A program made the translations under genes and the position numbers. Positions 4,634-8,899 of a DNA stretch of 64,000 nt are shown here, in pieces (position 1 is the first letter of the stretch; each line of letters begins with the position of its first letter). Where the stretch lies: assembly GCA_018333515.1 (NCBI GenBank), contig JAGXSZ010000001.1, positions 1 to 64,000 on the forward strand. The letters run 5' to 3'. Source of the stretch: Actinomycetota bacterium (lineage in GTDB: Bacteria > Actinomycetota > Aquicultoria > Aquicultorales > Aquicultoraceae). The notes under the pieces were generated by a model that made no database searches, was not told the DNA's origin, and worked only from the letters and a program-made list of their open reading frames with translations.

Positions 4634-5878
4634 TTAGCTCACAAACTCCATCAACTTCCCCTGTTTGCGGAGGACATTGATGAGGGAGCGGACTACTTTG
4701 GGGTCGTAGACTATGGCTTGGTCTTTCTTGATGCGGGTTATGGCCTGGTAGGCGGTGAGGCGCTCGTCGGGGTTGTCCGCGCGGGTAAACTTGTCGAACG
4801 AGCTGGCGACGTTGATGATGCGCGCGCCGAGCGACAGCTCGGAGGGCGAGCCGACTTTATCTATCGGGAAGTGGTGCTTGCGGACCATGTCGGCCGCGTC
4901 TTTTAAGAAATCGACCTCTTCTATTATCTCCGCGCCGATGATGGCGTGCGGGGCTTCGCCGCTCTGCGCGCTCGCCTGCTCCAGCAGGTGGTCGAGCGAG
5001 TCCTCGTCGACGCCGAGCATGCCGATGTCGTGCAGGAGCGCGGCGTAGCCGATTAACTCGAGGTCGCGCCCGTGCACCCCCATCTCTTTGCCTATATCGA
5101 CCGAGTAACTCGCTACCCGCTGGCCGTGGCCGCGCCGGCGCGGGTTCTGCGCTTCGATTGTATTCGCCAACGCCTCGATGGTCTTCCGGTATACCCTGCG
5201 GATGTCGAGAAAAGATTTAAAAGAGAGGCGCGTCACCAGAAGCGGCACAAAAAATATGAGCAGCCCCCAGTACGCCATGCCCCCGTACATTATCGCAAGA
5301 AGCACCCCGAGCGATGAGAGCGCTAAATAAAACGGGGCCAAAAACTCGACCGCCGACATGAACGCGGGGATGTACGGTGTTCCCCGGTTGATAGAGATAG
5401 CCAGTTGGTCGAGGCCGAGCATCAAGAAGGTGTAGACGCCGCAGAGCAATACCAGCGCCGTTATGCCGTAAAACGGCTCGATTTTGCCGGTCTCGCCGCC
5501 GGCCGCGTAAAAGACCTGGGCGGCCGCTATAACAATCAAAACGAGCTGCGAAAGCGGGTACATCGTCGCTGTGAACTTTAACTTCAATCGCTGCACCAGC
5601 ATCGATACGACGACACCGACTACGATGATGAGGAGCGCCTGCGGCAGCGGAAAGAGCAAGACCGAGGCGATGATTACCGCCGTGTCGATGTGGACCTTGC
5701 CCCCTTGCGGCAGGCGGATATCGAGGAGCCTGCTGATGATTGCCGCGAGCGCGAACAAACCGACCATGGCGAGATTATCCGCGGTCAGGCGCATCGCGTA
5801 GACCGCGAGCGCGATGACGCCAAACGATATTACGACACTCCTATATATTTTCGCCTTATGCCGGATTCTCGACTCCAA
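4634..5878 (-). CDS. Membrane HD-domain protein with degenerate GYP half
   Basis: 414 residues. Six or more membrane helices fill about residues 10-220, a MASE-like sensory region shared with the upstream paralogue. An HD hydrolase domain follows, with HGQRVASYS near 251 and LLHDIGMLG with HD at 283-284. Compared with true HD-GYP enzymes, the region that should read HHExxxGxGYP is MVRKHHFPIDKVGSPSELSL, so the GYP signature and several metal or substrate residues are missing. It may still bind metal but is unlikely to be a normal c-di-GMP phosphodiesterase. The TTG start lies inside the end of the upstream HD-GYP gene (23-nt overlap), which implies coupled translation and perhaps a hetero-complex. 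Confidence 0.85.
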   Translation of the reverse strand: MESRIRHKAKIYRSVVISFGVIALAVYAMRLTADNLAMVGLFALAAIISRLLDIRLPQGGKVHIDTAVIIASVLLFPLPQALLIIVVGVVVSMLVQRLKLKFTATMYPLSQLVLIVIAAAQVFYAAGGETGKIEPFYGITALVLLCGVYTFLMLGLDQLAISINRGTPYIPAFMSAVEFLAPFYLALSSLGVLLAIMYGGMAYWGLLIFFVPLLVTRLSFKSFLDIRRVYRKTIEALANTIEAQNPRRRGHGQRVASYSVDIGKEMGVHGRDLELIGYAALLHDIGMLGVDEDSLDHLLEQASAQSGEAPHAIIGAEIIEEVDFLKDAADMVRKHHFPIDKVGSPSELSLGARIINVASSFDKFTRADNPDERLTAYQAITRIKKDQAIVYDPKVVRSLINVLRKQGKLMEFVS

Positions 5879-7160
5879 TGCTTAGCTGCAACTCCTTTAT
5901 CTCGGGGCCGGCCTTCTCCATCGACAGGTCGAGCGCGCGCATGAAAGCCTCGACGACTTCGCTATCGAACTGCCGGTTAGAGCACGCCATCAATTCCTCG
6001 GCCGCCTCCTCGACGCTCATCGCCGGCCTATATGAGCGCGTCGAGGTCATCGCGTCGAAGCTGTCGGCGACCGTCATAATCCGCGCGAGAAGCGGGATGC
6101 GCTCTCCCGCCAGGCCCTCCCCGTAACCGCGTCCGTTGAGGTGTTCGTGGTGGTAATAGACCGCGGGGATCGCTTTTTCGAGAAAATCGATATCATTTAG
6201 GATGCTCGCGCCGATTCTGGGGTGCGACTGTATCTTTTTGAACTCGTCGTTGTTGAGCTTTCCCGGCTTGTTGAGAATCTTGCGGGCGATGCCGATTTTT
6301 CCGATATCGTGCAGAAGCGCCGCGTAGCGAAGCGTCTCCACCCGGTCTTCGGGCAGTTTTAGCTCGCGCGCGATTTGCTCCGCGTACTTGGCGACGCGCT
6401 CCGAGTGGCCGCGCGTGTACGGGTCTTTGGCCTCCAGCGCCTGGACCAAGGCTTTGACCGTATCGAGATACGCTCCTCGCAGCTGCATATAGACCTGGAA
6501 GGTCTGCCGGGCGATGAGGAGCGGCACTATCAAAAGGACGAAGCTCGCCGGGCCGGTCAGGTAGTATATCTGCGCCAGAACCAAGCCCAGCACACCGAGG
6601 GCGAAGTAGTTCGGGATGAGCCACTGGTAGTCGAAACGCCAGATACCAACGGGTGATTCGTCGTTCAAAAGGCCGACTCCGAGGGCGATAAGGCCGGTGT
6701 TTAGGGCGAAGAAGACCGTGCTCGCAAAGACCACGGGCACGATTATGTACGGGAAGTCGGCGACGGTTATCCCGCCGATAGAGCCCCCGGTCAAGATGTA
6801 GACATAACCGGCGGCATAGGCCGATATGACATAATTACACGCGCTAAATACCATCTTGTACCAGGGGATTTTGCGCTTGAGGTCACCGATATTGATTACC
6901 GTTATGAGGCCGGCGATTACCGCGGCCTGGGGGCCGAAGAGAAGCGCCGCCGCGAAAATAACGGCGAAACTGACTGAAATCGAAGCATTCTTCGGTAGCG
7001 GGATGGTGAAAGAATCGGCGACAAAAATGAACAACGCAAAAAAAGCGACATCCGCCCACGATAAAGCGGGCTTGGTTATCAAGCTTGCAAGCAAAACCAC
7101 AAATGCCGCCGCATATACGCTATAAAAAAATATTCTCGCCTTGGAAGTGATGTCCTTCAC
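5856..7160 (-). CDS. Membrane HD-GYP domain protein (putative c-di-GMP phosphodiesterase)
   Basis: 434 residues. About six membrane helices (residues 10-225) are followed by a full HD-GYP domain: GHSERV at 251, LLHDIGKIG with HD at 284-285, an SHPRIGASIL segment near 312, HHEHLNGRGYGEGL at 337-350, and the ADSFDAMTSTRSYRPAMS block. HD-GYP enzymes hydrolyse cyclic di-GMP. The GYP tripeptide here is GYG, a conservative variant. The start is GTG at 7160. A 26-residue peptide gene lies 85 nt upstream on the same strand, and a degenerate paralogue follows with a 23-nt overlap. The membrane part probably senses a signal; its nature is unknown. Confidence 0.9.
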   Translation of the reverse strand: MKDITSKARIFFYSVYAAAFVVLLASLITKPALSWADVAFFALFIFVADSFTIPLPKNASISVSFAVIFAAALLFGPQAAVIAGLITVINIGDLKRKIPWYKMVFSACNYVISAYAAGYVYILTGGSIGGITVADFPYIIVPVVFASTVFFALNTGLIALGVGLLNDESPVGIWRFDYQWLIPNYFALGVLGLVLAQIYYLTGPASFVLLIVPLLIARQTFQVYMQLRGAYLDTVKALVQALEAKDPYTRGHSERVAKYAEQIARELKLPEDRVETLRYAALLHDIGKIGIARKILNKPGKLNNDEFKKIQSHPRIGASILNDIDFLEKAIPAVYYHHEHLNGRGYGEGLAGERIPLLARIMTVADSFDAMTSTRSYRPAMSVEEAAEELMACSNRQFDSEVVEAFMRALDLSMEKAGPEIKELQLSIGVENPA

Positions 7161-7225: not shown

Positions 7226-7446
7226 GGACCGACATCAAAAGAAAATCAACCCATTCTGCTGCCGGCTCCGCCGGCCAGAATCAAGCTTGCGAGGGCAACG
7301 AGTGTCATCAGAATACGGGCTTTCAACAAAGAGACCTCCTTTTAGGTTCTCTCCCCTTCCCCGCTCGCTGTCGGAAGGGTCAGCACCGCTCCGCTCAATA
7401 ACTAATCGATTGTTCACCTTTGTCTCGAACATTTTGATGTCGGTCC
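7226..7446. repeat. 15-bp perfect inverted repeat bracketing the peptide gene
   Basis: GGACCGACATCAAAA at 7226-7240 and its exact reverse complement TTTTGATGTCGGTCC at 7432-7446. The arms are 191 nt apart and enclose the peptide gene and its leader. A second, smaller stem (CCCTTCC at 7354-7360, GGAAGGG at 7373-7379) lies between. The arms could be ends of a very small mobile element, a long-range RNA stem or paired protein sites. Confidence 0.7.
7246..7326 (-). CDS. Small hydrophobic peptide (26 residues)
   Basis: A tiny reading frame with a textbook ribosome site: AGGAGG at 7335-7340, then an 8-nt spacer and TTG at 7324-7326 (a second TTG in frame at 7327-7329 is 5 nt from the SD). It encodes 26 residues: a basic start MKAR, a hydrophobic core ILMTLVALASLILA, and a Gly/Ala/Ser tail GGAGSRMG before TGA. 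It could be a membrane peptide, a leader peptide or a secreted signal. It sits just before the HD-GYP pair and inside a 15-bp inverted repeat. The strong SD and clean layout argue against chance; I do not recognise a named family. Confidence 0.6.
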   Translation of the reverse strand: MKARILMTLVALASLILAGGAGSRMG

Positions 7447-7463
7447 AGAAATCAACGCTAACG

Positions 7464-8111
7464 CTATGAGGTTATCAAGAGTTCCAAGCGCCTGTTGACG
7501 GCGTCGAGCACCGCTCTTACTATCGCTTCGCGCTCATCGTCTTTTACTATAGCACAACCGACATATGTCTCATCGCCGCTACTGTCGAGTAACGCCACCG
7601 AGGCAACGACGACCGTATCGCGACCCAAAGCCATCGCGGTGATGTCTTCGAGGGCGAAGGCCTCGTTCCCTGCGATTATCCGCTCAACGGCGGCTAAGGC
7701 GGCGCTCGCGACAAGCCGTAGCCTGCCTACTCTCGATGCGACCCCCTCCGCGAGGCCTTCGTAATCGGTCTCGCCGTGGCGCAAAGTCACCGCGACTCGT
7801 GCCCTCCGGTCATCGACTTCGTGCCGGACCGAATCGAGTTTCAGCCGCGCTCTCGGCACCCTGTGCTCAGCGGAGCCAAGCTGGGCGATACTGATTTTGC
7901 GGTGGTTTACGGGTAGGCCGAATTGCGCCATCAACATCGATTCGATGTCGCGGGAGATTTGCTTGGGCCCCTTGCCCGAACTCGCTAGAATATGAATCTC
8001 TTCGATTCCGCGACCCGGACCGACTACGATTCGTGCCGCCTTGATTTCTTCGATTTGGCAGAGCAAGCCCTCGATCTCCTCGACCGAGACGTTGTCTATC
8101 GTCGGGTTCAT
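7464..8111 (-). CDS. Conserved hypothetical two-part protein
   Basis: 215 soluble residues with no signal peptide. The N-terminal part (IEGLLCQIEEIKAARIVVGP, then IEEIHILASSGKGPKQISRD and IESMLMAQFGLPVNHRKISI) looks like an alpha/beta unit that may bind nucleic acid or an acyl chain. After a linker, the C-terminal part (VAVTLRHGETDYEGLAEGVA, VGRLRLVASAALAAVERIIA, then DTVVVASVALLDSSGDETYV and a long helix) resembles small alpha/beta dimerisation domains such as those in allosteric enzymes. GAGGA is 6 nt before the ATG. The gene is 86 nt from hpf, same strand. I cannot assign a function. Confidence 0.6.
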   Translation of the reverse strand: MNPTIDNVSVEEIEGLLCQIEEIKAARIVVGPGRGIEEIHILASSGKGPKQISRDIESMLMAQFGLPVNHRKISIAQLGSAEHRVPRARLKLDSVRHEVDDRRARVAVTLRHGETDYEGLAEGVASRVGRLRLVASAALAAVERIIAGNEAFALEDITAMALGRDTVVVASVALLDSSGDETYVGCAIVKDDEREAIVRAVLDAVNRRLELLITS

Positions 8112-8197: not shown

Positions 8198-8755
8198 TTA
8201 CATCTTGCCGGAAATCGGCTCGATTAAACCGTAGTTATGGTCGCGACGCCTATAAACGACGTTTACCTCATCGGTATCGGTGTTGGTGAAGACAAAGAAA
8301 TCGTGCCCCAAAAGCTCCATCTGCTGGGTCGCCTCTTCGGCGTCCATCGGCTTGACCGCAATCTGCTTGACTTTGACGATACGCGGGCCTTCGAACTCCT
8401 CTTCGACCGCGACGAGAGCCGCGCTCATCTCACCGGGCTTCGGAGAGCCTTTGGCGCTCTTGGAGAGTTTGTTCTTATATCGTTTGATTTGCCGTTCGAG
8501 CTTGTCGACGACCATATCGATCGAGGCATACATATCGGTCGAGGACTCTTTGGCCCTCAGGATAGGCCCCTTCGGGAAGACTGTCACCTCTATGGTCTTC
8601 GATTTTTCGATGCTCGGGTTCTTCTCATCTATGAAAGCGATTTCGATTTTGATGATTTTGTCGAAATACTTGCTTATTCTCCCGATTTTCTCTTCGGCAT
8701 ACGCTCGAAGAGCATCGGTTACCTCCATATGCCTGCCTTTTACGATTATTTCCAT
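8198..8755 (-). CDS. hpf: Long-form ribosome hibernation promoting factor
   Basis: HPF binds the decoding region of idle 30S subunits and, in the long form, dimerises 70S into 100S particles. The N-terminal RaiA/HPF domain is MEIIVKGRHMEVTDALRAYA, EEKIGRISKYFDKIIKIEIA, then a segment with SSTDMYASIDMVVDKLERQI and KRYKNKL. The C-terminal dimerisation domain (KQIAVKPMDAEEATQQMELL, then GHDFFVFTNTDTDEVNVVYR) shows it is the long form. ATG at 8755 lies 9 nt after AGGAG; an ATG at 8761 is only 3 nt away. hpf commonly sits next to comF and secA; here both are near but separated by inserted genes. Confidence 0.95.
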   Translation of the reverse strand: MEIIVKGRHMEVTDALRAYAEEKIGRISKYFDKIIKIEIAFIDEKNPSIEKSKTIEVTVFPKGPILRAKESSTDMYASIDMVVDKLERQIKRYKNKLSKSAKGSPKPGEMSAALVAVEEEFEGPRIVKVKQIAVKPMDAEEATQQMELLGHDFFVFTNTDTDEVNVVYRRRDHNYGLIEPISGKM

Positions 8756-8899
8756 GCGCATACACTCCTAACTATGCTCGTGTCGACCGACAGCTCTTAT
8801 ACTTTGAATAACTACAGATGAGGAAACGCGGGTTGACCCGTTGACAGCCGGCGCATAAACCCCGCCGGGCGCACCACTAACTCGGGCATACCACTAACG

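Follow-up and report, generated by a model that had tools for sequence, protein, structure and literature searches.

Does a 26-residue frame in front of two genes for HD-GYP membrane proteins encode a functional peptide, and on what would this peptide act? The frame lies in a 64,000-nucleotide stretch of Actinomycetota DNA (the window), where a preliminary description had noted it and had offered three roles for its product: a signal sensed by the membrane domain of the HD-GYP proteins, a translational leader or an inhibitor of the phosphodiesterase.

A small gene upstream of two HD-GYP genes

The TTG frame with its Shine-Dalgarno (SD) sequence at 7246-7326 proved to be real; its strand, absent from that description, is the minus strand. 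Its placing before two membrane HD-GYP-type genes was likewise correct, the first of these starting 85 nt downstream and the second overlapping the end of the first. The peptide gene thereby sits between a gene for a 215-aa protein (7464-8111) and the two MASE9-like/HD-GYP genes:

4634-5878, minus strand: second MASE9-like/HD-GYP paralogue, overlapping the end of the first HD-GYP gene
5856-7160, minus strand: MASE9-type multi-pass membrane domain plus HD-GYP phosphodiesterase domain (Pfam), GTG start at 7160, predicted partner
7246-7326, minus strand: small-peptide gene, TTG 7326-7324, stop TGA 7248-7246, product (M)KARILMTLVALASLILAGGAGSRMG, 26 residues
7334-7343, minus strand: full Shine-Dalgarno sequence AAAAGGAGGT, 7 nt 5' of the TTG, in a predicted hairpin
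7351-7331, minus strand: predicted hairpin GAGAACCT-AAA-AGGAGGTCTC, containing the SD of the peptide gene
7464-8111, minus strand: 215-aa protein, family unassigned, immediately preceding the RNA/peptide in the HD-GYP loci of Actinomycetota and Bacillota alike
8198-8761, minus strand: hpf-like ribosome hibernation factor (family by eye), in the same order in loci L167, L168 and L169

A second in-frame TTG (7329-7327) just 5' of the peptide start is an alternative; the start site was chosen at 7326, to which the ATG and GTG starts of relatives align. The window peptide is present in a single copy in its own genome (profile match E 1.2e-11) and carries an atypical tail, GSRMG, without an aromatic residue.

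When short frames upstream of homologous HD-GYP genes were searched, the same peptide, with its SD and with TTG, GTG or ATG as start codon, was found in the genus and family and across most of the class. Frame, SD and residues, whose lack of conservation in relatives was to count against the gene, are thus all three conserved, the SD in nearly all relatives. An HD-GYP relative is present in 40 of 40 related genomes, with readable upstream DNA for the better matches, and the closest named genomes with an orthologous HD-GYP gene belong to Candidatus Aquicultor (Actinomycetota). A profile built from 17 peptides (A2) matches the peptide in 24 of 36 class genomes, one copy each, mostly at E 1e-9 to 1e-13, the two weakest of the 24 lying above E 0.001. 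The pN/pS of the peptide frame, computed directly, stands at 0.15 for genera of the Aquicultor family and at 0.18 for another group, as against 1.14 and 2.72 for the other two frames over the same gene. The peptide is a protein-coding gene under purifying selection, and because substitutions are mostly synonymous, its residues and not only its codons matter.

The predicted partner and its neighbours

The first HD-GYP protein matches Pfam HD_5 (E 3.5e-42), and the HD and HHE...GY motifs can be read in its sequence as LLHDIGK and HHEHLNGRGYGEGL, as in a predicted phosphodiesterase. Against Pfam MASE9 (PF20972) it reaches 25.3 bits in the genome search (cut-off 24.3), while the annotated protein scores 23.1 bits (E 7.7e-5) in hmmscan, just under the cut-off. 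A structure model of the receptor (AlphaFold2, six sequences) has a mean pLDDT of 46, too low to be of use. Speculatively, MASE9 might resemble ECF S-components. The paralogue at 4634-5878 keeps the HD motif LLHDIG and, by eye, has HHFPIDKVGSP in place of the GYP region; it is perhaps a degenerate, inactive or altered enzyme. The 215-aa protein has no match in Pfam or NCBIfam, and the locus encodes no exporter or protease. The order hpf, 215-aa gene, RNA/peptide, MASE9-HD-GYP gene is conserved in both phyla.

Occurrence across phyla

Profile A2 was extended to A4 (22 peptides, trained on Actinomycetota only); the first profile and A4 match 44 and 48, respectively, of 397 Actinomycetota genomes. 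Peptide loci outside the class were read with models derived from HD-GYP proteins and six kinases. Nearly all Actinomycetota peptide genes adjoin proteins that share one N-terminal membrane domain, the constant element of the partner, and differ in their output. Outside the class, HD-GYP neighbours occur in L109, L112, L113, L117 and L121, histidine kinases (HisKA_3/HATPase) in L103-L106, L110, L111, L115, L118, L120 and others, and GGDEF-EAL proteins in L114, L116 and L119. Pfam names the membrane domain of the kinases MASE9, at or somewhat below the cut-off; as our membrane-domain model included six kinases flanking peptide matches, the kinase neighbourhoods it reports are not fully independent, whereas the Pfam calls are. 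The peptide gene of a kinase locus does not precede its MASE9 kinase genes; it is divergent from them, on the opposite strand. The peptides of L102 and L108 (G182, a fragmented genome) have a good SD and profile score and no MASE9-like gene within ~2.5 kb, and are orphan peptides.

As a blind test across phyla, A4 was run over 200 Bacillota genomes, 65 of which contain a Pfam MASE9 match, and gave 22 matches at E<=0.01. Seventeen of them lie 70-420 nt upstream of a Pfam MASE9 match on the same strand (G400, G529, G436, G537, G431, G410, G515, G552, G408, G445, G484, G435, G548, G510, G473, G422 and G399), where the expected number of coincidences is well below 0.01 (~80 MASE9 genes in ~550 Mb). 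Two more, in G514 and G443, precede a MASE9-like HD-GYP gene for which Pfam lists no match there; two follow the 215-aa gene where a contig ends, and one, inside a 464-aa frame, is a chance match.

Viewed from the receptor side, 24 of the 30 best Bacillota MASE9 loci contain the peptide by a profile enlarged with peptides seen in those same loci, and a 25th (L135) does so by eye; one of the peptide-less loci offers scarcely any DNA upstream. In Actinomycetota, a peptide with a typical tail, partly identified by eye, is present at about 24 of 30 MASE9 loci. None was detected in 20 Acidobacteriota MASE9 loci, which were scanned by a hydrophobicity filter and not by tail pattern, and therefore MASE9 does not depend on the peptide in all lineages; Bacillota and Actinomycetota are the only phyla where the two were seen paired. 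The MASE9-bearing Thermotoga maritima is said to use the small peptide TM0504 in density-dependent exopolysaccharide formation. The association with MASE9, computed directly, spans two phyla and three outputs, and the pairing of peptide and MASE9 is strongly supported by these genomic data.

A conserved tail behind a variable middle

The 105 distinct peptides share one plan. A basic head leads into a hydrophobic stretch, 91% then have a (G/S/A/V)G(A/G/S) step, and 4-7 further residues follow. The tails are rich in aromatic and basic residues and often end in K/R-W. Within the last six residues, 90% of the peptides have K/R and 90% an aromatic residue or His; Trp accounts for 17.7% of residues in the last five positions, as against 0.3% elsewhere. 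All 105 tails together contain one acidic residue, and Cys occurs in 3 of the 105 peptides. Divergent members found via the RNA or the receptor (MKKVVKVLVSLVGAGYLKW, MKKMVNVLTRLMGVAGVWKW, MKWLFNFMSLFLGRGGNYKW and MAKFFKMVLKMVGFGSTVRW) have kept the tail (GYLKW, GVWKW, GNYKW (beside the RNA) and STVRW) and not the hydrophobic middle, which makes the C-terminal end the probable site of recognition. In genome G143, HWRVG tails stand beside kinases and GWKPY or RWKPN tails beside a GGDEF-EAL protein; such tracking of receptor type by tail type would be expected for cognate pairs.

Several loci carry more than one peptide gene. Family f17 (L207, L209, L211, L215, L217, L223 and L227) has two tandem identical or near-identical genes, for example MARFFKLIFSLVGLGSTVRW, before a single MASE9-HD-GYP gene. 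In L114 (2204-3005) and L119, several distinct tandem genes, up to four, precede a MASE9-GGDEF-EAL gene, with the tails GWKPY and RWKPN.

Pfam gave no match for the window peptide (E<=0.001) or ten relatives (E<=0.01), and NCBIfam none for the relatives at E<=0.01; against the window peptide NCBIfam returned weak, unrelated MobA-type matches only (E 0.08-0.1). The peptides form an undescribed small-protein family which, judged from gene pairing and conservation, would work like peptide signalling, a known kind.

A structured leader RNA

The peptide gene of HD-GYP loci is embedded in a structured RNA that shows covariation and has the following elements in the window:

7432-7446, minus strand: stem P1, 5' arm GGACCGACATCAAAA, outer stem enclosing the peptide gene, covariation
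7226-7240, minus strand: stem P1, 3' arm TTTTGATGTCGGTCC, followed by a T-run at 7225-7220
7386-7396, minus strand: conserved motif GAGCGGAGCGG, predicted largely single-stranded, upstream of the SD, present in Bacillota
7354-7379, minus strand: hairpin P3 (CCCTTCC / GGAAGGG), loop with the conserved (U)AGCGG, upstream of the SD
7324-7406, minus strand: leader RNA matched by covariance model R1 (48.9 bits, E 1.3e-9; the window sequence is in the training set)

The 12 counted pairs of P1 are 99.4% paired in 13 sequences, 8 of them changed on both sides, and 0 of 500 shuffles were as good. A P1-like helix has a mean z of 3.4 in Aquicultoria/f55 and 3.2 in Bacillota; it is absent from the kinase loci (0.2). 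For P3, covariation is 0.512 compared with 0.188 in shuffled alignments (0/500; 52 sequences), in an alignment fitted to the structure, the stems having first been seen without that fit. The most conserved letters of the RNA are GAG/UAG triplets spaced by CG (GAGCGGAGCGG and UAGCGG; 7386-7396 and 7361-7368 in the window). RNAalifold over the whole element produced a mixed structure that included coding segments and was left unused; alternative pairings are possible around the SD of the peptide gene.

An RNA-only covariance model, restricted to the 83-nt leader that ends at the start codon, matched 37 times at E<=0.01 across 200 Bacillota genomes. Among the best 30 of the 37 loci, 28 adjoin a MASE9-like HD-GYP gene and 2 stand at contig edges, and a peptide frame was found in all 30 loci read, many of which had contributed to the model, so that only the untrained ones are independent. 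Rfam had no match at the element in the window (E<=5) or in the Actinomycetota or Bacillota loci (E<=1).

We also considered the P1 arms as the ends of a mobile element and rejected this: with no mismatch allowed, the genome contains the inverted repeat only once, its arms covary, and relatives have an orthologous repeat. Kinase-type loci L076, L077, L080, L082 and L083 have another leader upstream of the peptide, with C-rich segments and a shared CCCGATA motif, which is perhaps a second RNA element. In L025 and L026, the interval from P1 to the HD-GYP gene contains a long, almost perfect hairpin of the GCATTTTCTAAATCT/AGATTTAGAAAATGC type. In G008 and G009 (loci L028 and L030), the receptor is retained and the peptide, the RNA and the 215-aa gene were not seen; in L028 a stretch similar to the 5' arm of P1 survives as a remnant. 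Both are apparent cases of secondary loss of peptide and RNA.

Proposed function and alternative explanations

We propose that the peptide is the dedicated partner of the MASE9 domain and that the two form a peptide-receptor pair, under RNA control in the HD-GYP loci; to this reading as a whole we assign a probability of about 0.6. The peptide would most likely insert N-in/C-out through its signal-peptide-like head and hydrophobic stretch and would probably be cut near the conserved (G/S/A)GA site (GGA in the window), with export of the tail. The short tail, GSRMG in the window and mostly x-aromatic-K/R-W in relatives, would then bind MASE9 directly and be recognised at its outer face or within the membrane, which may change c-di-GMP hydrolysis or, in other lineages, the activity of a kinase or GGDEF-EAL output. 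In the HD-GYP loci, the leader RNA, closed by the stem that joins both ends of the peptide message, may limit or time translation of the peptide by folding the SD region. The signal sensed by the membrane domain, one of the three roles first offered, is favoured, since the link of the peptide gene to MASE9 holds regardless of output domain and gene order. An inhibitor specific to HD-GYP proteins is unlikely, because kinases and GGDEF-EAL proteins have the same peptide partner.

The main rival is an intramembrane micro-subunit, an unreleased single-pass helix bound to MASE9 that tunes or stabilises the sensor; we regard it as less likely than the reading above, and as the competitor to be taken most seriously. 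Small membrane proteins such as MgrB and AcrZ bind their targets, and the length and hydrophobicity of the peptide suit one membrane helix. Between species, the tail varies less than that of a typical species-specific pheromone, which an always-present membrane micro-subunit would explain equally well; the conservation of tail chemistry across phyla and the single peptide copy per HD-GYP gene in most genomes also speak for a subunit. However, the divergent MAKFFKMVLKMVGFGSTVRW and MKWLFNFMSLFLGRGGNYKW, with a short or amphipathic, Lys-containing middle, would span a membrane poorly, and both the distinct tandem peptides before one receptor in L114 and the near-identical f17 pairs better fit a secreted precursor than a subunit.

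That peptide synthesis acts as a translational leader or attenuator of the downstream HD-GYP gene, with selection only through translation, is very improbable. The gene does immediately precede the HD-GYP gene, within a structured RNA that may pair in alternative ways around the SD. As a main role this earlier suggestion nevertheless finds no support, because the kinase-locus peptide gene is divergent from its MASE9 genes and the residues are conserved, substitutions being mostly synonymous and the tail conserved where the rest is not. A type I toxin, whose small hydrophobic product, 5'-3' end-paired message (here joined by P1) and hidden SD are alike in length and anatomy, is the least probable reading, given the fixed syntenic position and single copy across classes, the near-exclusive MASE9 neighbourhood, the conserved aromatic-basic tail and the missing P1 stem in kinase loci (mean z 0.2).

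Relation to known systems

AgrD/AgrC, ComX/ComP and Rgg-SHP/ComS are peptide pheromone systems of Gram-positive bacteria. As there, a small precursor gene stands beside a receptor gene, tandem copies occur and a short C-terminal active segment is plausible. Unlike these systems, to which there is no homology, the present loci have a MASE9 receptor domain, c-di-GMP hydrolysis as the usual output and a conserved structured RNA, and no AgrB/ComQ-like modifying enzyme was noticed nearby. Neither hallmark of an AgrD-type cyclic autoinducer, AgrB partner or Cys/Ser thiolactone core, is apparent: no AgrB-like gene was noticed by reading the loci, and Cys occurs in only 3 of 105 peptides. Enterococcal sex pheromones derive from lipoprotein signal peptides. 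They share with our family a signal-peptide-like precursor, and LAGGA resembles the lipobox LAGC with C replaced by G; here, in contrast, no lipoprotein is encoded, the entire gene serves as precursor, and conservation falls on the tail that follows GGA. MgrB-PhoQ and DbfQ-DbfRS (PMC12714742) are similar in that a small protein is encoded beside, or acts on, a membrane sensor, yet those proteins are larger and unrelated in sequence.

A search of the open literature returned nothing on MASE9 ligands, on TM0504 or on HD-GYP proteins with a peptide pheromone. To our knowledge, no small-protein regulator has been described for HD-GYP or MASE9 and no ligand for MASE9 (PF20972). Our data suggest the peptide as a new candidate partner or ligand of this domain. 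In a review of c-di-GMP sensory perception, peptides come up a single time, as potential ligands for periplasmic-binding-protein domains (PMC8846402).

Peptide genes of 20-30 residues fall below the usual annotation length and so have probably been missed. We further propose, a little less firmly than an even bet, a peptide-signalling family of Bacillota and Actinomycetota that would act via MASE9 on c-di-GMP turnover and kinases, with a new class of riboswitch-like RNA setting the amount of peptide; RNA, peptide and receptor would form a complete circuit for which no relative has been described. As a sensor domain MASE9 is an orphan, and the signals of most membrane-bound c-di-GMP enzymes are unknown. 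A ribosomally made partner in dozens of genera is a testable ligand for MASE9, and the pair would join small-protein signalling to c-di-GMP and add a new structured RNA.
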